Shown here one piece after another: positions 1 through 10,105 of a stretch of DNA of 64,000 nucleotides. The DNA is from Tateyamaria omphalii (GTDB lineage Bacteria > Pseudomonadota > Alphaproteobacteria > Rhodobacterales > Rhodobacteraceae). The position numbers and the translations under genes were made by a program. The stretch spans positions 248,001 through 312,000 of the forward strand of contig NZ_BMWT01000005.1 of NCBI RefSeq assembly GCF_014651375.1, written 5' to 3'. Numbering within the stretch: position 1 is the stretch's first letter; each line of letters begins with the position of its first letter. The notes under the pieces are model-generated. The model did not search any database. It was not told the origin of the DNA and saw only the letters and a program-made list of their open reading frames with translations.

Positions 1-2
1 CC

Positions 3-386
3 GTCGCTGCCGATGGCGGTTTCAGAGTACCACTCTTGATCCCACAAAGGACGTACACTGCAAGGTCATTTGTGAACAGTGACACTGCCTTCTTCGTTGA
101 ACTGCCGGGAACGTCGACGACGTTAGTCGCTTGTCTGGCCGTGAACATCATCGACCACGCATGGCTCATTTCCATCACGGGCACGGTCTCGACAGTAGAA
201 GCCTTTGCCACCTTGGCAGAAGCATCTGCTGGGGTTGTGGAGTTCACGACAGGACCTCTTTCTGGCCTGACCGGGACGGACGGAAAGATCACGCTTTCAC
301 TAGACAGCTCTGCCAGCCCGCCAAGGCTCTGGATTGAGAACCGGCTGAGCAGCAACCGCTTCTTCTCTCTGACACTTTTTGGTTAA
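3..386 (+). CDS. Phage virion or tail-associated protein, 5' end missing
   Basis: The frame is open to the left edge of the window and reads plausibly there (VAADGGFRVPLLIPQRTYTA), so the true start is probably outside. A TTG at 36, overlapping a stop in another frame, would otherwise give a 116-residue protein. The C-terminal part is rich in Thr, Ser and Gly with alternating hydrophobic residues, as in beta-rich virion proteins, and ends SNRFFSLTLFG. No family is recognised. The esterase gene starts 13 bases after the stop, so the two are probably cotranscribed. Confidence 0.6.
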   Translation, partial: VAADGGFRVPLLIPQRTYTARSFVNSDTAFFVELPGTSTTLVACLAVNIIDHAWLISITGTVSTVEAFATLAEASAGVVEFTTGPLSGLTGTDGKITLSLDSSASPPRLWIENRLSSNRFFSLTLFG

Positions 387-399
387 GCAAGGATCGAAC

Positions 400-1587
400 A
401 TGGGTTTCAATCTCATTTCACCGCGCATGGTCGAGGGCCTGCGCGACAGACCTCTACTCATCTTGATCTTGGGTCAATCGAATGCGGCGAACAGCAACCC
501 GCAGGCCCAAGGGGGCGACCTGGTTGTAGACGATCTCATCAAAGCTTTGGACGATTCCGCGTTTGTTGTCGTCAACCCAACGACAGGCGCTGGCGTGCAT
601 GCTGTCGGCTACAACAATCTGGCATTCCAAATGGCAAAGCGCGCGCGCCGCGATGGATACGGCGAAGTGTTCATTGTTCAAGAAGCGGTTGGCGGTGCGA
701 CGATCGACCAATTCATCGGCACAGGTCCACAAGCGCCCCGGTACACGTCCATGCAGGCAAAGATGAATGCCGCGCTCTCGTCTCCTGAGTTGGCAGCAAA
801 GGCTTTCGACTTTGTTGTAATTTGGATGCAAGGCGAGAGTAACGGCGGCCCCGGCTTTGAGCTGAGCCAATACGGAGCGCAGTTTGGCACGCTCAAGGGG
901 CAATTGCGATCTGAACCATGGTGGAAGGCGGGAACACAGATTGTTTGTGGCTCCATGCCGCCCCTATCATCCGCGCGGATTGTTGACGCGTTTTTCGTGA
1001 ACACGCTTCCGAATGACGACGATCCATACACGGTCACCGCCGACCTGCGTTCGTTCACCGCCGGTGCGGATCAGCTTCATTGGACGGGTGAAGAACTCGA
1101 TGAGGTGGGGGCACGGTTCTACGACACGTGGCGACGCAACATTGCCCCCGCAACTCCGACGCAAGACCGTGTCGCATCAGAGTATGTTTTGTTCAGCGGC
1201 GAGCACGTGAATGGCCGGGGATTGGGAATTCGCTGGGATGAAGCACCGTTGCAGGGAACGATTGGTGTGTCGTCCTACAGCTTTGCGGACAACCAGGTTT
1301 TTGTTACCCCCGCCAGTCTGACATTCGACAGCGATGATGGCTTTGTCAGGGCCAACGGTGATTTCTTTGTCAGCGGCCATTTGGAGTGCCTTTCAGGACT
1401 GACATTCGACAGCCAGTTTGGTTCTGCGTTTGTCGATGTTACAAATGCGGTCAACACCAGCGACGGAAAGAAGGCCGGAACCGCTTACTTCGATGCAGCC
1501 AACAACCGCCTAATCGTTGCGACCGGTCCTGCAGACAATGCCAGTTGGGTGTTTTTTAATCCAGCAGGGGCGATTTCCCCCGTCTAA
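400..1587 (+). CDS. SGNH/SASA-type carbohydrate esterase, phage-borne
   Basis: A 395-residue protein whose N-terminal two thirds match the sialate O-acetylesterase-like SGNH hydrolases. The Ser block is LILILGQSNAANS near residue 27, the Gly block QEAVGGATIDQF, the Asn block IWMQGESNGG, and the Asp-His block is probably ADQLHWTGEEL near 225. The C-terminal about 140 residues are beta-rich with repeated TFDS segments and look like a receptor-binding or virion-anchoring domain. The ATG at 400 follows an AAGGA at proper spacing. In phages such enzymes deacetylate host surface polysaccharide; the substrate here is unknown. The gene lies directly downstream of a virion gene and upstream of the lysis genes. 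Confidence 0.7.
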   Translation: MGFNLISPRMVEGLRDRPLLILILGQSNAANSNPQAQGGDLVVDDLIKALDDSAFVVVNPTTGAGVHAVGYNNLAFQMAKRARRDGYGEVFIVQEAVGGATIDQFIGTGPQAPRYTSMQAKMNAALSSPELAAKAFDFVVIWMQGESNGGPGFELSQYGAQFGTLKGQLRSEPWWKAGTQIVCGSMPPLSSARIVDAFFVNTLPNDDDPYTVTADLRSFTAGADQLHWTGEELDEVGARFYDTWRRNIAPATPTQDRVASEYVLFSGEHVNGRGLGIRWDEAPLQGTIGVSSYSFADNQVFVTPASLTFDSDDGFVRANGDFFVSGHLECLSGLTFDSQFGSAFVDVTNAVNTSDGKKAGTAYFDAANNRLIVATGPADNASWVFFNPAGAISPV

Positions 1588-1602
1588 GCCCAACCCTGAA
1601 CC

Positions 1603-1647
1603 GCGCAGAAACTGCGCCTGACTTGCCCGCCGCGTGCGGGTTTTTTT
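1603..1647 (+). terminator. Tandem hairpin and T-run terminator
   Basis: A GCGCAG/CTGCGC hairpin (1603-1617) is followed by CCCGC (1626-1630) and GCGGG (1636-1640) flanking a CGCGT loop, then seven T (1641-1647). This is a canonical intrinsic terminator for the structural genes. It stands 14 bases before the endolysin start, so some read-through or a separate lysis promoter is likely. Confidence 0.8.
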
Positions 1648-1660
1648 GTGGAGAATTGAC

Positions 1661-2458
1661 ATGAACCGCGAAGATTTCTTCGCTGCCCTGCGGAAGCGGG
1701 ACAGCGGTGTATTCGGCACGTCTCTTTCGCAAGGGCAAGTCGATGGCTGCGAGGCCATTCTGGACGCCTGCTATGAGGCTACAGCGTCTCTTGAGCAGGC
1801 CGCATACATCCTTGCAACAGGGTACGGTGAAACAGGCGGGAAAATGCAGGCCGTCCGTGAAAACCTGAACTACAGAGCCAGCGCCATTCGCAAGCACTTC
1901 GGCTCGCATCGGCGCCAAGGCTACACCCCAGAACAGCTTGCACGAAACCCTCAGAAGCTCGCCAACACCGTCTATGGTGGTGAGTGGGGGCGCAAAAACC
2001 TTGGAAACACACAGCCCAACGATGGCTGGGACTTCCGGGGCTGGGGCATTGGTCAATGGACCGGGCGCAGAAACACGGAAAAGGCGGGTCGGGACGTTGG
2101 CTTGGACTTGGTTTCTGATCCCACAAAGCTGGATGACCCTGCGACAAACGCGAGCTTGCTTGTGTCTTGGATGGTCGAGGGCAAGGCGACGGGCAAGCGC
2201 TTGGGGCAGTACATCAACGATGGACGCAAGGATTATCTGGCGGCACGGGCCGTCTGGGGGGGCGTGAACGCGTCGAAGTACGCCCAGCACGCTGAGCGGT
2301 TTGAAAAGGCATTGCACGCTGCCGGGTATGCCCCAAGCACAGCCCCACAGAAGCCGCCACAGCCCGATATGGAGCAACTGCCGGAGTTTGAGGGTGAAAC
2401 CTCGCCTTGGCTGGCATTGCTCAAAGCGATCCTCAGTATCATTGGGAGGAAGTCATGA
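1661..2458 (+). CDS. Phage endolysin, GH19 chitinase-like lysozyme
   Basis: A 265-residue protein with the fold signature of chitinase-like (GH19-type) phage lysozymes. Visible are AAYILATGYGETGGKMQ around residue 50, with the putative catalytic Glu in YGETGG, NLNYRASAIRKHF, and the substrate-groove stretch ANTVYGGEWGRKNLGN plus WDFRGWGIGQWTGR. A Pro/Gln-rich linker follows residue 225, and a short hydrophobic C-terminus (WLALLKAILSIIG) may touch the membrane. The ATG at 1661 was preferred over an upstream in-frame start because it follows GTGGAG and gives the usual N-terminus. The stop overlaps the next membrane gene (ATGA), so they form a lysis cassette. Confidence 0.8.
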   Translation: MNREDFFAALRKRDSGVFGTSLSQGQVDGCEAILDACYEATASLEQAAYILATGYGETGGKMQAVRENLNYRASAIRKHFGSHRRQGYTPEQLARNPQKLANTVYGGEWGRKNLGNTQPNDGWDFRGWGIGQWTGRRNTEKAGRDVGLDLVSDPTKLDDPATNASLLVSWMVEGKATGKRLGQYINDGRKDYLAARAVWGGVNASKYAQHAERFEKALHAAGYAPSTAPQKPPQPDMEQLPEFEGETSPWLALLKAILSIIGRKS

Positions 2459-2646
2459 ACTACGCCCCACTTGTGCGCATCTCGCTTCGCTATGGAGCTG
2501 GCGCACTGTTCAGTGTCTCGGTTGGTGACATGCTGGCCTCTGACCCTGACGTTGTGAATACGGCATCTGCTGCGCTTTCCTTCGTCATCACGGCAGTAAC
2601 CGAGTGGCTCTATGCCCGAGCTAAACGGGAAGGCGGCGCGACATGA
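2455..2646 (+). CDS. Small phage membrane protein, holin-like
   Basis: A 63-residue protein starting MNYAPLVRISLRYGAGALF with two moderately hydrophobic stretches (about residues 9-24 and 32-50) and a basic C-terminus (YARAKREGG). Its ATG overlaps the endolysin stop and its stop overlaps the next start, which is typical of holin or antiholin genes. The sequence alone does not say which lysis role it has. Confidence 0.6.
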   Translation: MNYAPLVRISLRYGAGALFSVSVGDMLASDPDVVNTASAALSFVITAVTEWLYARAKREGGAT

Positions 2647-2741
2647 GCAACGATCCAATCCTTGCCGGGCTTCTGGTGTTTGCCTTGATCATTCTGGCAG
2701 CCGTCGGTCTTGTCGGTGGCGTCTGGTTTTACCTGTCATGA
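2643..2741 (+). CDS. 32-residue single-span membrane peptide in the lysis cassette
   Basis: The frame reads MSNDPILAGLLVFALIILAA and ends in VWFYLS: a short polar N-terminus followed by one membrane segment covering nearly the whole peptide. It is coupled on both sides by 4-base ATGA-type overlaps, so it fits exactly between two lysis genes and is very likely translated. It may be an antiholin, a pinholin or an accessory spanin-like piece; no family is recognised. Confidence 0.55.
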   Translation: MSNDPILAGLLVFALIILAAVGLVGGVWFYLS

Positions 2742-3103
2742 TGGCCCTCATCGCAAAGTTTCTGGGCGGCAACGTGCTGGATCGTGTCTTGGATACGGTC
2801 GATCGAAAGGTCGATGCACAGACCGACAAGGATCGCATCAAGGGCGAAGTTGTGCAGCAGTATCTTGCCACGCGGGCTGACTTCATGCGGGCGGGCGGCT
2901 TTTGGTTGATGCTGTTGTTCGCAGTACCTCTGGCATTCTGGTTCAGCGCAGTGGTCTTGTATAGCGTCCTTTGGTGCGCCGGGTGCGCCTTCCCTCAGAA
3001 TTGGACCGTGGCGGCTCTTCCTGCGCCTCTGGATGAATGGGCCGGAACTATCATTGTTTCCATATTTGGCGTGGTCGCGGCTGACCGCATTCTAAGGCGA
3101 TAA
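2738..3103 (+). CDS. Holin-family protein (GTA-type 3TM holin)
   Basis: A 121-residue protein resembling the 'holin of 3TMs, for gene-transfer release' family found in alphaproteobacterial prophages and gene transfer agents. It has an amphipathic N-terminus (MMALIAKFLGGNVLDRVLDT), a charged segment (KVDAQTDKDRIKGEV) and two clear membrane spans (about residues 54-75 and 98-116, IIVSIFGVVAADRI). The start overlaps the preceding tiny gene. Its role would be to release the endolysin through the inner membrane. Confidence 0.7.
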   Translation: MMALIAKFLGGNVLDRVLDTVDRKVDAQTDKDRIKGEVVQQYLATRADFMRAGGFWLMLLFAVPLAFWFSAVVLYSVLWCAGCAFPQNWTVAALPAPLDEWAGTIIVSIFGVVAADRILRR

Positions 3104-3146
3104 GCGCATGAGCGTGAGCCGTATCATCGTGAAGGAAGTAGCGAAA

Positions 3147-3317
3147 ATGAGCGATCCGACAACTGCTGTCGCCGCAGGTGCTTTGACGAGTCCAATTTGG
3201 TTGCCGAGCTTGAACATGGTGAGCGCGTTTTTCGCAACTGTACTGCCCATCCTTGGTGCGATCTGGCTGATCGTTCAGATAGTGCGCGCGATCTACACGT
3301 GGCCAAGCAAGAGTTGA
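3147..3317 (+). CDS. Small single-span membrane protein
   Basis: A 56-residue protein beginning MSDPTTAVAAGALTSPIWLP, with one strong membrane segment (VSAFFATVLPILGAIWLIVQ) and a short basic tail. An in-frame ATG at 3108 would add 13 residues, but the ATG at 3147 has a better ribosome site (GAAGGAAGTAGCGAAA). It continues the run of small membrane genes after the holin; function unknown. Confidence 0.5.
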   Translation: MSDPTTAVAAGALTSPIWLPSLNMVSAFFATVLPILGAIWLIVQIVRAIYTWPSKS

Positions 3318-3419
3318 GAGCGTGTTTCTGCCGCGTACGGCAGGACCGCAAGCTAGGAAAGCCCAAGTCCAAGCCACCTATTTCCCGAATTCACACCTTC
3401 ACTACAAAGGAGGCACGCC

Positions 3420-3695
3420 ATGCCGCGCGCTCAACACCTCATTACGCTTGAACACAATGAAATCGCCGAGCTTACCAGAAACGATGTCACCGCGATCACG
3501 TTCCACTGCATTGTGGGAGAGGTGCATATCATCCGCTCGAACTCCGAACCGGACGTGAACGACAGTGGCTGGCTGTATCGGCGCGGTGAAGGTGAGCGCA
3601 ACATTGCCTTGGCTGACCTGTCTTCCGCACCTGGTACACGGGTTTGGGCCATTGGGCGGGCAATCGCATCTGAGGTGCTGGTGGACCATGCGTAG
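3420..3695 (+). CDS. Conserved phage-type hypothetical protein, 91 residues
   Basis: The gene has a strong Shine-Dalgarno (AAAGGAGG) before its ATG. The protein (MPRAQHLITLEHNEIAELTR...) is small, soluble and beta-rich, with no signal peptide or recognised motif. Its last 8 bases overlap the start of the next gene, so the two are translationally coupled. It may be a tail-tip or assembly accessory of the large protein downstream. Confidence 0.6.
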   Translation: MPRAQHLITLEHNEIAELTRNDVTAITFHCIVGEVHIIRSNSEPDVNDSGWLYRRGEGERNIALADLSSAPGTRVWAIGRAIASEVLVDHA

Positions 3696-4920
3696 CCCGT
3701 TTGAACGGTCGTTTTCGCCGTTTGGGTCTGAGGTCGTCGCTGGCAACATCCCCGTGGTCACCTCAGAAACGTGGGCTCTATCCGGCCACAGCTACGGCGA
3801 CACTCTGCAGGGCCGAAGGCCGGAGGGAAACGCGCTGCGTGATATGGCTGGCGTGGACGGGATCACACTGAATGAGTTCTTTGTCACGGGGGCGTGGCAG
3901 ACAGCGCAGTATCGCTATGATCGCAGCCAATCGAACGATGCAGGGGCAATCGGTCCTCCGCATCTGATTGACGAGCTGCGCGACCCAGCAAATGAATTCA
4001 CCTACCTTGTGAACATGGAAGGCATGGATGACCCCGGTGGCCTAGAGGGGATCACAAACGGTTCTCCGTCTTTTGCAGACACCGGTGCATTGGCGTGGCA
4101 TACTGAGGCCACGACTGCCGGAGTTGATACACATTTCTACATTCGTTGGGGTGGCTACAGCGCGGAGTACGGTGGGTTTAATCAGTCATGGCGCAACGCA
4201 ATCAGCAACGAGGAATGGGCGCGCTGGGATGGGATGAAGTCCTATGTGGACGCCAACAAGGCACATGGATCACCCTCGTTTGAATTTGTGTACCTTGATG
4301 CGGCTGTTGCGGTCCTGTTCGATCGGATTCAGGATGGAACTTACACCCAATTTTCCATTGGTGATTTCTTTTCTGACACCGTTCACATGGATACGAACCT
4401 TGGGCGTTGGCTTGTTTATGTGTTTGTTTGGTCTTCTATTCGCGGAACCGATCCGAATGTGTACCCGCTTCAATTGGGCGCGATGACAGCGCCAATCACG
4501 GCAGGCCAGAAAGCGGAACTTTTTAACCTCGTTGTGGATGTGCAAGCTGATCCGAGCCTTGCAATTCTGCCGGCTGGTCCTGCAACAGCACCCGCAGCTT
4601 TAACAGTGTCTGACTGGACTTTGGAAACGAGTGCTACCAGTGGGGCTGTTGACCTTACCATAACCACCGCGCCCGACGATGGCGGATCGCCAATCACCGG
4701 GTACCAGTACACGACAGCGGGCGCAGACAGCCATTGGGTAGATATTCCAAGCGCAGGCGCGTCCTACAGCGTGGGTGAGACTGCGCAGATTACACATCAC
4801 TCATGGGATCCAAGCTTTCCCATTGGCACCGGAAACAACGTAGGCATTTTGGTGCGCGCTGTTAACGCAATTGGCAATGGGCCTCTGTCGGATGGCAAGG
4901 GCGCTGCAACAGGGATGTAA
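3688..4920 (+). CDS. Phage surface protein with possible SGNH-like N-terminus and Fn3-like C-terminus
   Basis: A 410-residue protein. The start at 3688 overlaps the preceding gene; an upstream in-frame start would read through that gene out of frame and is unlikely. Near residue 30, TWALSGHSYGDTLQ resembles the first block of SGNH hydrolases, and later GIGD- and DTVHMDTNLGRW-like stretches could supply the acid-base pair, but the assignment is tentative. The last 100 residues (from PAALTVSDW) are a fibronectin type III-like beta domain (ITGYQYTT, VRAVNAIGNGPLSDG). It is probably a host-recognition or polysaccharide-modifying virion protein, paralogous in role to the esterase at 400-1587. Confidence 0.55.
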   Translation: MRSPFERSFSPFGSEVVAGNIPVVTSETWALSGHSYGDTLQGRRPEGNALRDMAGVDGITLNEFFVTGAWQTAQYRYDRSQSNDAGAIGPPHLIDELRDPANEFTYLVNMEGMDDPGGLEGITNGSPSFADTGALAWHTEATTAGVDTHFYIRWGGYSAEYGGFNQSWRNAISNEEWARWDGMKSYVDANKAHGSPSFEFVYLDAAVAVLFDRIQDGTYTQFSIGDFFSDTVHMDTNLGRWLVYVFVWSSIRGTDPNVYPLQLGAMTAPITAGQKAELFNLVVDVQADPSLAILPAGPATAPAALTVSDWTLETSATSGAVDLTITTAPDDGGSPITGYQYTTAGADSHWVDIPSAGASYSVGETAQITHHSWDPSFPIGTGNNVGILVRAVNAIGNGPLSDGKGAATGM

Positions 4921-4961
4921 CCCACCACCACTATACCGGCCCCTACAAGGGCGAGGTCAGA

Positions 4962-5381
4962 TTACCGGCAATAGCTGGATACGGGCAAAGCACGACTCCG
5001 GTCAGTTTCATACTCCCGATACTTGCCCCTTGAATATCTGGGGCAGTCCCGAGCAAGACCCTCCGAGATCGCGAGAGCGCCTATGTCCTGCCCAGAGGGC
5101 AGGTAGCAGGTGCCGACCCAACGGTCATGCGTCTTTGCGCCCGTGAGGCTACAGGAGATCGGCTTGCGCAGGACCAGACGACGCAACCACTTCCGCCCGG
5201 CCGCCCCCGCGGGTGTGTCCAATTCGGGCCCGTCGATCCCGTTGAAGCGCACGGGAAGATCTTTGACCTCGATGGTGTCTATGTCGCGAACATGCGTAAC
5301 GCGACCCTCAATCCAGTTCTGAGCACTGGCCGTCGCTGGAAGAGCAACAGCCAGGAATGGTGCAAGGATGAACCACTGCAT
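4962..5381 (-). CDS. Secreted thermonuclease-family (SNase) nuclease
   Basis: A 139-residue protein with a signal peptide (MQWFILAPFLAVALPATASA) followed by a compact staphylococcal nuclease domain. The key residues are visible: the Arg and Asp/Glu of VRFNGIDGPELDTPAG and the second Arg in KTHDRWVGTCYL. It would cleave DNA or RNA in the periplasm or outside the cell, with Ca2+ as cofactor in the family. It is transcribed opposite to the phage structural genes and overlaps the upstream gene by one base (TGATG). Confidence 0.8.
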   Translation of the reverse strand: MQWFILAPFLAVALPATASAQNWIEGRVTHVRDIDTIEVKDLPVRFNGIDGPELDTPAGAAGRKWLRRLVLRKPISCSLTGAKTHDRWVGTCYLPSGQDIGALAISEGLARDCPRYSRGKYREYETDRSRALPVSSYCR

Positions 5382-5803
5382 CAGCTCGCGACCTGCAGAT
5401 CGAGACAGCCGGCGACAAGAACAGCCTGCGCATCAAGAATAGTCGACACAACCTTTGCCGGTTTATCCGTCATGTCGGCAAGACCATCGTCTATGGCGGC
5501 ACTAAGCATCAGAGATGACTTTCGGGCATTTGAACAGGGTTGAGCCTCGTCCCATTCATCCAGTTCAGCAAGCTGCGCAATCCAGAGGGCTGCGAGTTCG
5601 CGAGTGAGTGTCAAAGGAAGTACACCAGCGACAAGAGCATACTCGATAACATCGTAGATCGTACTGTACCCCAAGGGAGCGAGTGGTCGCTCAGCACAGT
5701 GCAACGATCGGTCCAGGAGGCAATGGTGCCATAGCGTCTGAACTTGCGTCGGCGTGATTTTTAGAAAGTTGGCAATCTCATCTTGCGTGAGAGGAATGTG
5801 CAT
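5381..5803 (-). CDS. Unrecognised 140-residue protein paired with the nuclease
   Basis: The N-terminus (IPLTQDEIANFLKITPTQVQTLW) looks like a helix-turn-helix, suggesting a small regulator. The rest is helical and ends with a segment (MTDKPAKVVSTILDAQAVLVAG) of unknown meaning. Its stop overlaps the nuclease start, so the two form a two-gene operon. A role as transcriptional regulator of the pair is an inference from position and the apparent helix-turn-helix. Confidence 0.55.
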   Translation of the reverse strand: MHIPLTQDEIANFLKITPTQVQTLWHHCLLDRSLHCAERPLAPLGYSTIYDVIEYALVAGVLPLTLTRELAALWIAQLAELDEWDEAQPCSNARKSSLMLSAAIDDGLADMTDKPAKVVSTILDAQAVLVAGCLDLQVAS

Positions 5804-6081
5804 CTTTTTCCGTTCCGATTCTGCGCCCCATCACATGCTGCCCGGAGAAGTCTTTACAATTTGTGTAAAGCTGGTGAAGCCCTAGTCTAACACTATCCCG
5901 CAGGTTTCGGTGGTTCACACGGATCAGCGTGGGGATACGGCACGCTGGAACGCCGATGGACGGGCCGTAGGGACGTTTGTGGACGCGCAGGTTTCTATTG
6001 GGTTTCCCATCTAAGACAGCGTCGAAATTCCACGCAAAACTCGCGGTCGGTCATTGTCCAGTAGGTCGTGGATGGGCCGCA
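5804..6081. other. Intergenic stretch with a possible coding remnant
   Basis: No intact gene. On the + strand, 5892-6014 is an open frame without a start codon, beginning HYPAGFGGSHGSAWGY and ending TFVDAQVSIGFPI then TAA. It is Gly-rich like the C-terminus of a phage tail protein, so it may be a remnant of a displaced tail-fibre end. A palindromic ACAATTTGTGTAAA-like AT-rich patch near 5855 may contain the promoter of the leftward pair. Confidence 0.3.
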
Positions 6082-6987
6082 CTATAGATCAGAAATCTCT
6101 GGCAATGGATCAAAGTCTTCCAGTTCTTCGCTTTCCCAGCATTCGGCCGTGTCAGGAGTGTAGTTCAACACTTCTACTGAGAATTCTTTTTCAACGCTGG
6201 GATAGTTCTCGATGATTGGTTGCAGCCCTATCTCACCGATACTGTTAGACTGAGTCTTTTCCAGCAGATTTTCCAATGCGAGATGTGCCTGTTGACATGA
6301 TCGGTAGTCAACGAAAATACTTAGGATGCCACCCCACGGAGCACCTGGTACCAAGTGCAGCTTAACATTTGCGCCCTCTGGTCCTTGTGTCCAAACAATG
6401 GTCCCCTGTCGAAATGAGGATCTACGGTAGTCTTCTGTTCTTGTTCGAATCCCGGCTGGATCACTAAAGCTGAAATCTTTGGTACTTGTGAGCCAATCTA
6501 AAATCGTCGCGTCGGCTGTATACCGCCAACCTGAGAAGACTGCTACGGACCCATGCACCTCCACCCTCGGGTGCATTGAGAGGCTTAGTCGGGCTGAATC
6601 GTCCGTGTTTCTCGAAATTCGCGCTTGCGCTACCAGTGTTTTTGGGGAGCCCGGGACCGCTCTTCCCCAGTCAACGTGACTCGGCCTAGAACTGCCAGCC
6701 AAACGTCGCACCTCTTCTTTTGATTCCGCGACAATTTCATCAAAGTGTCGGGCTTTGTATGCGTCCAAGCCTAGGATTATTACTAGGACTGCTGTCCAGA
6801 GCGCTATTGCGCCGCGGAACCAGTTTGTCGCAGTACTTGCTGTAGCAACAAGATGGCTTTCGCGCGCCTCCGATGAAGCAAACCTATCAAATAGTGCGTC
6901 TACCTTTACCGCTAGGTATCTGACATCTGGTTCCGTAAAATCGGAGGTTTCTTTTTCCAATAGGCTCCCCGGATTCTGATCAGGCAT
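6082..6987 (-). CDS. Unrecognised membrane-anchored protein, 301 residues
   Basis: The N-terminus is cytosolic and polar (MPDQNPGSLLEKETSDF). One membrane span lies at about residues 60-76 (IALWTAVLVIILGLDAY), followed by a short charged helical neck (EIVAESKEEVRRLAG) and a roughly 200-residue soluble domain rich in beta strands (HPRVEVHGSVAVFSGWRYTA, GILSIFVDYRSC). No catalytic motif or family is recognised. It is monocistronic, opposite to the following membrane pair, and its base composition is visibly more AT-rich than the chromosome to the right. It is probably island cargo. Confidence 0.6.
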   Translation of the reverse strand: MPDQNPGSLLEKETSDFTEPDVRYLAVKVDALFDRFASSEARESHLVATASTATNWFRGAIALWTAVLVIILGLDAYKARHFDEIVAESKEEVRRLAGSSRPSHVDWGRAVPGSPKTLVAQARISRNTDDSARLSLSMHPRVEVHGSVAVFSGWRYTADATILDWLTSTKDFSFSDPAGIRTRTEDYRRSSFRQGTIVWTQGPEGANVKLHLVPGAPWGGILSIFVDYRSCQQAHLALENLLEKTQSNSIGEIGLQPIIENYPSVEKEFSVEVLNYTPDTAECWESEELEDFDPLPEISDL

Positions 6988-7268
6988 CAGATTCCCCCTA
7001 ATACTATTCTATTTCCCCCTATTGGTATCCTACTGTTGAATATCCAGTCAAATACCAGGTCTGCTCTCTTTCTTGCGCAGTAAGGGTGGCACTCTCCGCT
7101 TCGGAGCGTTTGATCTACACAAGTAGTTTCTGTTGCTTCCCTCGATTCTCATATGCACTGTGAATTGACTGCATCCTCTACGAAGGGCAAAGGATGTTTT
7201 AGGTCTGTGGTAGAGAAGTGCGATATGAGCGCTGGATACCGCGTCGGGTAACATAGGGACGCAAGTAG
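6988..7268. other. AT-rich intergenic region
   Basis: No gene is supported. The first 60 bases contain runs such as CCCCCTAATACTATTCTATTTCCCCC, read here as two blocks of CCCCCTA separated by AT-rich sequence, and probably hold the promoter of the leftward membrane gene. The remainder has no clear signal. Confidence 0.4.
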
Positions 7269-7405
7269 ATGGCACTTACAACCAGCGAAAAGCTGGACAT
7301 CTATCGTCGCAACCTTGCGCAGTACGAAGCGGCTGGCGATGACGATAAGGTGCGCGTTGAGCGGCGCTGATAGAGCGGCTTGAGCGTGAAGGGAAGAGTG
7401 GTTGA
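7269..7405 (+). pseudogene. Small phage gene broken by a one-base frameshift
   Basis: The intact frame from ATG 7269 gives only 33 residues (MALTTSEKLDIYRRNLAQYE... ending KVRVERR) and stops at 7370. If one base is read twice at 7367, the sequence continues as LIERLEREGKSG to a TGA at 7405, giving a smooth charged helical C-terminus. This pattern suggests a 45-residue gene of the small phage helical type that lost one base, or a real -1 frameshift. No obvious slippery heptamer is seen at the junction. Confidence 0.4.
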
Positions 7406-7537
7406 TGCTTTGACTGTGGGCAATGCATTTTGCGTCATGAATAGATCAACCGTGCGTATCGGCACTTACTTGGATTGAAACCGTCTTGGCGACCGCAGGA
7501 TGGGCTTTTGTTGAAGAAGGTAAGTAAAGGGTGATGA

Positions 7538-8275
7538 GTGCTGTTTTTTGACGATTCCCAGTTTGAAAAGATACGACGGTCCATCGTGCTCATCGGAGCG
7601 ACGTTCGTTGTTGTGTGGTATTTTGAGGTGCCAATCTCAAACCCATTGCAAGTTCTTGGATCGAAGGAAGACTCCGTTCCGGGCTTGAGCAATCAAGCCT
7701 TCATTTGGCTGCTATTGATGTTGCAGAGCTACCTGGTGGTGCGTCTGGCGATGTTGCGAGGTGCTACGTTAATCAGGCTTGAGCAGGCTTGGGCCGTAAA
7801 TGTCGTAGGGAGTCAGGGTGACGCCTCGGACAATGTTTTGGAAGCGAGAGCAAAATTACTTTCAGCCAGCGCTGACATCAGAAACTTGGAGAAAACGGTG
7901 CAGAATGCAAGCCAGATGTTTCGGCACCACTTTTCCAGTTTGGAACAGTATTTGGCACATGCTCACAGCGCAGGCATAGACCTTTCTGACGTGAGAAACG
8001 CAGATACCGATGGTACGCTAGGAGAGATTAAGTCGAATTGGGCAAATGCCTTGACAGCTTTGGAAACTGCGGCTGATACCGTTAAAGTAGACGCGGTCGA
8101 TACACTCACAAAAACTCTGCTAGATACCAAGGCTGATCGCGCAAGGGTTCGCGTCCGTAGGTCATTTTTTCTGTTTGATTTAGGACTTCCTGCTGTCATC
8201 TACTGTGCGCAAGTACTGCTTACCTTAGCCGGTGACAGGGCCGATTCCTTGAAAGTGTTTTTACTGTCGCTTTGA
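7538..8275 (+). CDS. Unrecognised polytopic membrane protein with coiled-coil centre
   Basis: A 245-residue protein with a GTG start preceded by TAAAGGG. Two membrane spans lie near the N-terminus (about residues 15-31, IVLIGATFVVVWYFEV, and 55-72, FIWLLLMLQSYLVV). A central helical cytosolic part (residues 90-195) reads like a coiled coil (LLSASADIRNLEKTVQNAS; ALTALETAADTVKVDAVDTL). The C-terminus contains one or two more hydrophobic segments (FFLFDLGLPAVIYCAQVLL). It overlaps or nearly overlaps the next membrane gene, so the two probably act together. No family is recognised; a membrane-perturbing or superinfection-exclusion role is speculation. Confidence 0.6.
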   Translation: MLFFDDSQFEKIRRSIVLIGATFVVVWYFEVPISNPLQVLGSKEDSVPGLSNQAFIWLLLMLQSYLVVRLAMLRGATLIRLEQAWAVNVVGSQGDASDNVLEARAKLLSASADIRNLEKTVQNASQMFRHHFSSLEQYLAHAHSAGIDLSDVRNADTDGTLGEIKSNWANALTALETAADTVKVDAVDTLTKTLLDTKADRARVRVRRSFFLFDLGLPAVIYCAQVLLTLAGDRADSLKVFLLSL

Positions 8276-8301
8276 TGTATTTACGAAAAGGAGCGGTGAT
8301 A

Positions 8302-8862
8302 GTGAACGATCTGAGCGATGCCTCACTTTCCCTAAATGAGACTCTGACGCTTGTTTTGTCGTTGATTGCATTGTTTTTTTCAGCCCTTACACTGGGGTGG
8401 ACGATCCACCGTGATCGTCAAAGACCCAAGTTCAAAGTTTCGGTTGCTGTTAGCAGGTTGGTGCATGAGACTGGATCGCCGTCACATCCCTTCATAAACG
8501 TTCAGGCCATCAACTATGGACCGATATCGAACCGTGTTGGTTTAGTTTTCCTTCGAAAAGGTTGGTTGAGGCGACGATTTGGAGACACCAGCACCGCTGT
8601 TGCCTTCCTAGCTGAGGACAACAATCATCTGGGCACCACCCCGCACTCTGTCAGAGCCAATCGCATTGAGGTAGGAGACAGTGTGAACTTCGCATTCCCT
8701 TTTGATGCAGAGTGCTTCCTGAAGGAAGACTGGAGTCAAATTGGCGTCGCAGACGGTTACGGAGCGGTTCATTGGGCGCCGAGGAAACAGTTACAAGAAG
8801 TACGTGATAGATTTCTGGAAGAGTTTGCTGACCAAATCGGTGGCAACAAAAAGGAGCCTTGA
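8302..8862 (+). CDS. Unrecognised single-span membrane protein, second gene of the cargo pair
   Basis: A 186-residue protein. The GTG at 8302 was chosen because AAAGGAG lies 8 bases upstream; an in-frame ATG at 8272 overlaps the previous gene and has no such site. One membrane span covers about residues 14-36 (LTLVLSLIALFFSALTLGWT). A C-terminal beta-rich domain follows (FKVSVAVSRLV, INVQAINYGPISNRVGLVFL), with the pattern of small sensor-like or immunoglobulin-like cytosolic domains. It is cotranscribed with the coiled-coil membrane protein. No function can be assigned. Confidence 0.6.
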   Translation: MNDLSDASLSLNETLTLVLSLIALFFSALTLGWTIHRDRQRPKFKVSVAVSRLVHETGSPSHPFINVQAINYGPISNRVGLVFLRKGWLRRRFGDTSTAVAFLAEDNNHLGTTPHSVRANRIEVGDSVNFAFPFDAECFLKEDWSQIGVADGYGAVHWAPRKQLQEVRDRFLEEFADQIGGNKKEP

Positions 8863-8895
8863 CGCACCACCCTCTGATCCGCTGTGATCATCTTA

Positions 8896-9585
8896 ATGTG
8901 CAATCTATACTCCAATCTCACTTCGCAAGAGGCTATGCGTCAGCTTTTTGACGTGCCGGTGGCTGATGATCATCTTGGTAATGCAGCACCACTGCCATCT
9001 ATCTATCCAAAAGGTGCAGCGCCCGTGGTTCGCCTTGGCCCGGACGGAGAGCGAGAACTGGTCAAAATGTCTTGGGGGTTCCGCACACCCAAGGTGTCAA
9101 AGAAAACCGGCAAGCCAATCAAACCGGCGGCCTGGAACAATGCACGCGACGACAAGCTGCACACTGGCTTGTGGAAGTCGAGCTTTCAGCAGCGGCGTTG
9201 CCTCGTACCAGCATCCAGCTTCTGCGAATCCAAGGGCAGGAACCCTGCGACCCACTATTGGTTCGGTATGGCATCGGATGACCTCGACGAGCGGCCACCC
9301 TTTGCATTTGCCGGATTCTGGCGGGATGAATACGACGATTTGGCCGTCGATGCGCAGGGTTTGTCGACGTACACGATCATCACGACCACCGCCAACGAGC
9401 TGGTCAAACCTGTGCACCCACAGCGCATGCCGGTGATCCTTGCCGCAGAAGAATATGAAGAATGGTTGTTTGGTAGTTCCGAGAATGTGGGGCGGCTGCT
9501 CAAGCCGTTTCCATCTGAGCATATGCGTGTCGTGGGGCAGGGCGTTGGGATGAAGGCTGATGATCCAGCCAGAACGCCTGTGTAG
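8896..9585 (+). CDS. HMCES/YedK (SRAP) abasic-site crosslinking protein
   Basis: SRAP proteins shield abasic sites in single-stranded DNA by forming a thiazolidine crosslink through Cys2. The start is set at ATG 8896 so that Cys is residue 2 (MCNLYSNLTSQEAM), as the chemistry requires; an upstream in-frame start would bury it. Conserved residues are present: the Asn of AAWNNARDD, the Glu of PASSFCESKG and the His of VKPVHPQRMPVIL. Length (229) is normal. Its position as the last large gene of the island, next to membrane cargo, fits the frequent presence of SRAP genes in mobile and SOS-linked loci. Confidence 0.9.
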   Translation: MCNLYSNLTSQEAMRQLFDVPVADDHLGNAAPLPSIYPKGAAPVVRLGPDGERELVKMSWGFRTPKVSKKTGKPIKPAAWNNARDDKLHTGLWKSSFQQRRCLVPASSFCESKGRNPATHYWFGMASDDLDERPPFAFAGFWRDEYDDLAVDAQGLSTYTIITTTANELVKPVHPQRMPVILAAEEYEEWLFGSSENVGRLLKPFPSEHMRVVGQGVGMKADDPARTPV

Positions 9586-9589
9586 GCCA

Positions 9590-9823
9590 TCACCAGTCAG
9601 ACACGCCTTTGCCGCCGCCGTGTGAGGATGACATGGGGTTTACGTCGCTGGGCAGGCACCAGCCTCTGACGCGGCGCTGACCAGTCCTGATACCGCAGCC
9701 GTCGCGTTCGCACAGTATCTCACGCTTATGCATGTCTGAGCCGTCATCACGAACAACGGTCGTTTGGCCGCAGGGGCAGGTGGAGTGGATGCCGATGAAA
9801 CCTTTGTTCTTGTAATGTTCCAT
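9590..9823 (-). CDS. Small Cys-rich protein, possible zinc ribbon
   Basis: The protein (77 residues from the ATG at 9823) contains the pairs STCPCGQ and LCERDGCG, plus a further Cys in RGWCLPS, a spacing that could bind one zinc. The rest is Gly/Ser-rich and basic. An upstream TTG would add ten residues. It is convergent with the SRAP gene, 4 bases apart, and lies at the edge of the island. Function unknown. Confidence 0.4.
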   Translation of the reverse strand: MEHYKNKGFIGIHSTCPCGQTTVVRDDGSDMHKREILCERDGCGIRTGQRRVRGWCLPSDVNPMSSSHGGGKGVSDW

Positions 9824-9885
9824 TTCCTGCTGATAGCAGTCAGGAGTCCCCAAAGAAAGCCACTAGCCTGTCAGACGATTCCCCT

Positions 9886-9913
9886 TCGTTTCTGTTACAT
9901 GTAACAGAAACGA
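9886..9913. promoter_or_regulatory. Perfect 28-bp palindrome between island and tRNA-Arg
   Basis: TCGTTTCTGTTACA is followed directly by its exact reverse complement. The centre (TGTTACATGTAACA) resembles LacI-family operators. It lies 34 bases from the tRNA 3' end. No T-run follows in the direction of tRNA transcription, so a simple terminator is unlikely. It could be an operator, an integrase/excisionase accessory site or a structured tRNA trailer. Confidence 0.6.
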
Positions 9914-9947
9914 GCAAATTGAACGGGCTCAAAAAGTCATGAAAATA

Positions 9948-10024
<77 letters not shown>

Positions 10025-10105
10025 ACTGGGGCGCGGTATAGCGGTGCCATCCGCGCCCTGCAATTGGAAATCGTAAGGCGCAGGTGTCCAGCGCCTCGGC
10101 CCGCC

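Follow-up and report, generated by a model that had tools for sequence, protein, structure and literature searches.

Three membrane-protein genes at the tRNA end of a Tateyamaria omphalii prophage: candidate accessory genes for phage exclusion

The stretch analysed here, 64,000 nucleotides of Tateyamaria omphalii DNA (the window; G000:C5:248001-312000, in a genome of 4.75 Mb), begins within what is apparently a complete prophage of 47.5 kb. Near the right end of this prophage lie three genes for predicted membrane proteins, which we call A (6082..6987, minus strand, 301 amino acids (aa)), B (7538..8275, plus strand, 245 aa) and C (8302..8862, plus strand, 186 aa). We tentatively propose that they are prophage accessory genes which act in exclusion or abortive infection at the inner membrane, B and C as a pair, a role that we hold to be a real possibility falling short of being probable. 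The observed basis for this is that the genes belong to a prophage, their position in it, their composition, the hydrophobic spans of their products, their rarity in the collections searched, and the presence of a relative of C on a viral contig. The partnership of B and C, their topology, their expression in the lysogen and the defence function are what we infer from it.

The right attachment site, attR (9947..9997), lies within the 3' half of a tRNA-Arg(CCG) gene (9948..10024, minus strand) that is intact at the right junction. It is a 51-bp perfect repeat of the left attachment site, attL (G000:C5:210459-210509, 51 bp, 100% identity), which is found at a distance of 47.5 kb on the left side of the intact tRNA gene and is adjoined by a gene for an integrase of 341 aa (phrog_1, E 3e-32; no Pfam match at E 0.01). 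Between the two copies are genes for a Cro/C1-type helix-turn-helix protein, Terminase_3, Phage_portal_3, a TMP_2 tape-measure protein, a phage-tail protein and a DUF6260 protein that is capsid-like by position, and the structural genes are followed by an esterase and an endolysin. The terminase has its nearest listed relative, 63% identical, in two Synechococcus phage records. Because of the attachment repeat, the integrase, and the phage structural and endolysin genes, we regard the segment as the right-hand terminus of a prophage that is apparently complete, and the view of an earlier note on this DNA, that it is prophage cargo at a tRNA attachment site, is strongly supported. tRNA genes, those for arginine included, are described as housing 35% of the high- and medium-quality prophages of Rhodobacteraceae (PMC8224337).

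The attachment site was surveyed in 19 congeners. The tRNA gene was joined to the same right flank in 11 of them, while the right-flank gene was matched without the tRNA in six and only the tRNA was matched in two (G163, G173). At none of the 11 loci with both tRNA and right flank did the 1.5 kb beyond the tRNA, on its opposite side, show a match to the left flank, the cargo or the integrase; the neighbours on that side differ among the loci, four of which share one transporter-like open reading frame (ORF; named by eye). The left side of tRNA-Arg(CCG) is thus variable within the genus. No clean empty site joining both flanks was found among these 11 loci, and the prophage boundaries rest on the attachment repeats and the integrase.

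A, B and C are located between the lysis and late genes and attR, in a region where the coding strand changes repeatedly. Rightward of the endolysin of the late/lysis module (1634..2458, plus strand), the plus strand encodes a 163-aa protein with three predicted spans (2612..3103; phrog_12264, of unknown function), for which only position and anatomy suggest a holin, and then an ORF of 451 aa. The minus strand then carries an SNase-like thermonuclease (4962..5381; Pfam SNase, 22.3 bits against a cut-off of 21), a 140-aa protein (5381..5803) and A. Beyond these, B, C and an SRAP gene are again on the plus strand, and a small cysteine-rich ORF on the opposite strand precedes attR. All parts named in the earlier note (thermonuclease, A, B, C, SRAP protein and tRNA-Arg(CCG)) are present. 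The endolysin and the three-span holin-like ORF at the same prophage end raise the possibility that A, B and C belong to the adjacent module and assist lysis or release late in infection (as holin, antiholin or spanin-like proteins). We consider this the least probable of the explanations discussed here, as A is about 3 kb and B about 4.4 kb away, with the 451-aa plus-strand ORF and two minus-strand genes in between; moreover, A is on the minus strand, the G+C content is lower, and there was no significant match to a lysis family.

The G+C content is 0.55-0.59 in window positions 1-5500 and 0.48-0.52 from 5501 to 9000. At third codon positions (GC3) it is 0.47 in A, 0.52 in B and 0.50 in C, compared with 0.58-0.67 in the endolysin (0.67), SASA, 451-aa and 163-aa ORFs, 0.62 in the SRAP gene and 0.64-0.77 in four host ORFs. 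As to coding support, when the segment was randomised 500 times with a first-order Markov model, the longest ORF had a median length of 142 aa, a 95th percentile of 204 and a maximum of 270. A is longer than the longest ORF in every one of the 500, and B lies above the 95th percentile and below the maximum. C, listed at 196 aa in the ORF list, falls below the 95th percentile, so its length alone proves nothing. A codon model trained on 15 long ORFs located rightward of the tRNA gene gives weak preference to the annotated frame for A and B (the score of A is still negative), and is undecided for C, where the annotated frame and one reverse frame tie (-0.014 and -0.013). That C is a real gene is supported by a conserved relative.

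These data bear on a further explanation, namely that the three ORFs have no present function, having been captured recently or being in decay. The weak codon bias, the lack of relatives of A and B, a length and codon bias of C within chance, and a stretch of about 550 bp between A and B without a called gene would all fit. We nevertheless judge it very improbable in view of the length of the A and B frames relative to the randomisations, the plausible Shine-Dalgarno sites of the segment genes and the conservation of C.

Just before the start of A, on the minus strand, the 9-mer TAGGGGGAA occurs in two copies 21 bp apart (6992-7021), the nearer of which overlaps the likely ribosome-binding site of A; no further copy was found in C5:205000-259999 or in the rest of the window.

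No Pfam or PADLOC family was found for any of the three proteins even at E 10, PADLOC matched none of four proteins (A, B, C and the SRAP protein), and PHROG and NCBIfam gave nothing significant for A, B or C (best PHROG value E 0.011, for B; a "stress response" match of B in NCBIfam at E 0.11 is below the cut-off). In PDB the best values for A and B were E 0.42 and 0.33. Scans with the single proteins A, B and C found no relative in viral contigs, plasmids or phages, and those with A and B none in genome contigs; such single-protein scans of viral and genome contigs reach close relatives only. No relative of the DNA of window positions 1-9947 was found in phages. The earlier note had seen three membrane proteins without recognised families, which holds for A and B, as neither has a family or a believable relative in any collection searched, and has to be amended for C, which has two distant relatives.

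In a genus sample of 20 genomes, our own included, the DNA of the segment was matched in three: our own, G177 (351 bp at 67%, within the SRAP gene) and G169 (56 bp at 88%, in the small ORF near attR). As the matches elsewhere concern only these two genes, DNA like A, B or C was undetected in all 19 congeners. Among 159 genomes of the family, B and C matched only their own genome, and A had one additional match, to a frame with 7 stops. In these two samples the genes did not turn up as core chromosomal genes, nor did they resemble any known family of phage structural or lysis proteins, the two outcomes that the earlier note had named as refuting its view.

A class sample of 289 genomes gave matches beyond our own for C (3), B (3) and A (5), and of these 11 the loci L018, L020 and L021 were examined. 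L021, a candidate relative of B (29% identity, E 1.7e-4 in a small set), was rejected because the match lies in frame within an amidohydrolase-like ORF. The others (L019, L022-L028) have E values of 2e-4 to 0.01; three of the five A matches contain internal stops, and A rematched L028, L024 and L027 at E 0.007-0.065. A viral-contig scan with a profile of C, L018 and L020 yielded no relative, and a second profile scan recovered only a contig already known. Profile searches of genomes gave matches in 2 of 299 and 3 of 298 genomes besides our own, where one of the latter three (G325) is a row of the profile itself; loci L030, L031, L070 and L071 were left unexamined. An adiponectin match in PDB, obtained with the first profile of C (E 1e-4), was put down to chance, as no stretch passes alone. 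Throughout, the names amidohydrolase, EamA, HNH, large terminase (L067), MFS, cysteine desulfurase, P4-type integrase and DUF3800, as well as the head-gene block of L020, were given by eye without a profile.

C belongs to a rare family, in which sequence comparison supports two relatives. The first is a 187-aa protein (L065) encoded on the IMG/VR viral contig IMGVR_UViG_2881853255_000009, which is 28% identical to C over 178 aa (E 6e-16 in a single comparison; E 6e-14 for the soluble parts alone) and lies about 4 kb from HNH-like and large-terminase-like ORFs (by eye); it has no relative of its own in phages and plasmids. The second is a 174-aa protein (L018) in G325, a genome of the same class, which matches C at E 1.9e-5, or at E 5e-7 over 53 aa in the soluble part. 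L065 and L018 are 42% identical in that part, and all three proteins share a span and a homologous soluble domain.

Membrane spans were predicted with a 19-residue hydropathy window rather than a dedicated predictor. A has one predicted span (residues 56-74), as the earlier note had claimed, followed by a C-terminal part of about 225 residues. B has three (15-33, 55-73 and 210-228), with about 136 residues between the second and third; the middle part, of about 130 residues, is devoid of proline, and a run of arginines precedes the third span. The coiled coil suggested earlier for B is not demonstrated, as the amphipathic periodicity of its proline-free middle was reached by 100 of 1000 shuffles. 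C has one span near its N terminus and the motif D-x-[FY]-G-x-x-HW near its C terminus. The description of A and C as beta-rich rests on single-sequence AlphaFold2 models of low confidence.

If C starts at ATG 8275 (195 aa), it overlaps B as TGATG, while a start at GTG 8302, 26 bp after the B stop, has the better Shine-Dalgarno sequence and fits the relatives. The coupling of B and C claimed in the earlier note thus stands as adjacency, with either the overlap or a 26-bp gap, GTG 8302 being the better supported start of C.

The positive-inside rule places the side of a span rich in lysine and arginine in the cytoplasm. These residues number 0-1 on the N-terminal side of the span and 4-6 on the C-terminal side in all five C-type proteins examined, including two without demonstrated homology, and the domain of C and of the four similar proteins is accordingly predicted by charge to face the cytoplasm. 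For B, the charges suggest an N-in topology with a periplasmic loop between spans 1 and 2 and a cytoplasmic middle; for A they are ambiguous.

From these features, we favour a scheme in which a temperate tailed phage, integrated at tRNA-Arg(CCG), would carry A, B and C as moron genes, foreign DNA gained in the interval from the lysis genes to attR. The B and C proteins would probably be co-expressed and reside in the inner membrane, B as an N-in protein with a cytoplasmic helical middle and C, as its charges indicate, N-out with its domain in the cytoplasm. The C domain, held by B, might then meet a component of an incoming phage, and this encounter could either block genome entry or trigger membrane leakage, resulting in superinfection exclusion or abortive infection. 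A would be a similar accessory gene that works independently of the pair. A stronger version, where B and C form a new two-component exclusion or abortive-infection system of the inner membrane, consisting of a three-span scaffold and an N-out anchor with a cytoplasmic sensor domain of a new family, we consider doubtful.

Exclusion appears the most likely role because of published precedents in position and anatomy, namely PdpSau, SieA, the lactococcal Sie systems and prophage-encoded defence in E. coli, where 12 of 21 newly selected defence systems were located in intact prophages (PMC9519451). PdpSau is a membrane-anchored abortive-infection protein of S. aureus prophages, whose gene invariably follows that of the amidase (PMC10127798). 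Like A to C it is, as described there, an accessory gene right after the lysis module, typically replacing other cargo, and its N-terminal anchor and cytoplasmic domain resemble those predicted for C; it differs in being a single gene for a 278-aa protein with an OB-fold-like domain, and A to C are likened to it by description, with no PADLOC model matching. SieA of P22, a three-span injection blocker of the inner membrane (PMC10883804), resembles predicted B in being a three-span inner-membrane prophage protein. Again the likeness is one of description: SieA has 162 or 164 aa and acts alone, whereas B has about 136 residues between spans 2 and 3. Lactococcal prophages possess one- and two-gene Sie systems (PMC7693887), among them Sie2009 and the two-gene SieF7/2AB, which are likewise small membrane-associated prophage proteins. 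In contrast to A to C, which are likened to them by description, they are encoded in the lysogeny module rather than at the attR end, and the second protein of SieF7/2AB is described by a zinc-binding motif rather than as a membrane protein.

Several observations weigh against this proposal. Searches of Pfam, PADLOC, PHROG and NCBIfam linked none of the three proteins, by domain or by sequence, to known proteins of exclusion or defence, and the structure models of A and C (mean predicted local distance difference test values of 40.5 and 45.9) are too poor to use. The low G+C is not peculiar to the three genes, as the neighbouring 140-aa gene has a GC3 of 0.52. Only one sigma-70-like promoter site was found in positions 4900-10100, inside A, where 3.2 would be expected from shuffles. 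B and C were not seen together at the two sequence-supported relatives of C: no B-like partner of L065 was recognised by eye, and the ORF upstream of L018 encodes 195 aa unlike B, without a predicted span. In addition, the other genes on the L018 contig look chromosomal (by eye), which weakens the case for a strictly phage-borne C family.

The L018 contig, where the C relative lies beside an EamA-like transporter ORF (by eye), also speaks for lysogenic conversion genes with another role in host fitness, for instance in envelope stress or in nutrient or surface properties. Such a role would also fit the position of the genes, their foreign composition and their membrane anatomy. As no domain for transport, enzymatic activity or stress scored significantly in A, B or C, we regard it as unlikely, though deserving serious attention. 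It is also conceivable that the three proteins serve host takeover or counter-defence during the prophage's own infection, since they are phage-borne, rare and membrane-bound and the nearby SRAP gene suggests genome-maintenance cargo. This we find quite improbable, as the genes are at the late, attR-proximal end, apart from the early genes, and significant matches to known families are absent.

Two proteins resemble C in appearance. L020 sits inside an apparent phage head-gene block, and IMG/VR holds a contig of the same length as the L020 contig that matches it at 100%. Dub35A_053 of Lactococcus phage Dub35A (L032:5974-6444) has, like C, a single span with the same charge pattern, and lies directly after the lysin at the right genome end. 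The similarity of L020 to C is low (E 0.007; BLASTP E 0.038), that of Dub35A_053 to L020 somewhat clearer (tblastn 29%, E 6e-6), and alignments of the C-type with the L020/Dub35A_053 proteins share a few columns. Homology to C was not supported once the spans were removed: the hhalign probability was 0.5%, and the profile scores of L020 (1.6 bits) and Dub35A_053 (0.0 bits) stayed below the best shuffles, which reached 8.3 and 9.7 bits (hmmsearch reported 831 and 878 of 1000 shuffles). With profiles of only two and three sequences, these tests are of low power, and a very distant relation is conceivable. We therefore treat the likeness as an analogy.

Dub35A_053 occurs in one of 50,697 phage records, its own, and no relative was found in viral contigs. 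The Dub35A lysogen resists phages of three groups; the authors did not identify the responsible gene, orf3, orf4, orf5 and orf12 were tested without significant effect on resistance, and the post-lysin, single-span orf53 is not among the genes reported as tested in the text available (PMC7693887). No discussion of the post-lysin gene was found in the available part of PMC5301393. A further phage-like contig (L073), binned in a genome of the same class and possibly a misbinned phage of another host, encodes at its left end a protein that has two hydrophobic stretches (430-1278) and, among head-like genes, a C-like single-span protein (6816-7322), all judged by eye.

Of the other genes in the segment, that of the SRAP (HMCES/YedK-type) protein (8896..9585, plus strand) is an ordinary member of its family and outside the novel claim: Pfam PF02586 covers residues 5-216 of the 233-aa frame (E 1.7e-33), and three distinct solved sequences in PDB are matched. 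With ATG 8896 as start the protein begins Met-Cys, and Cys2 presumably has a role in this family. The relative in G177 (L015:1240-2301) forms part of an open frame of 353 aa that is extended at the N terminus, and a DUF3800-like ORF (by eye) lies close to it. The 140-aa protein beside the thermonuclease has one hydrophobic stretch (118-136) and a weak helix-turn-helix resemblance below the cut-off. The small cysteine-rich ORF next to attR (9590..9853, minus strand, 87 aa) resembles a shorter stretch in G169 (L016:1371-1577), near an apparent P4-type integrase remnant (by eye). A perfect palindrome of 26 bp (9887..9912), 34 bp from attR and found in a single genomic place even at 3 mismatches, is possibly an operator or an integrase-related site.

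Orphan cargo is common in prophages, and the finding of A, B and C is for this reason of moderate interest. A limited literature search found no exclusion gene named in Rhodobacteraceae. Should B and C together prove to block other phages, prophage-encoded exclusion would gain a family so far unrecognised.

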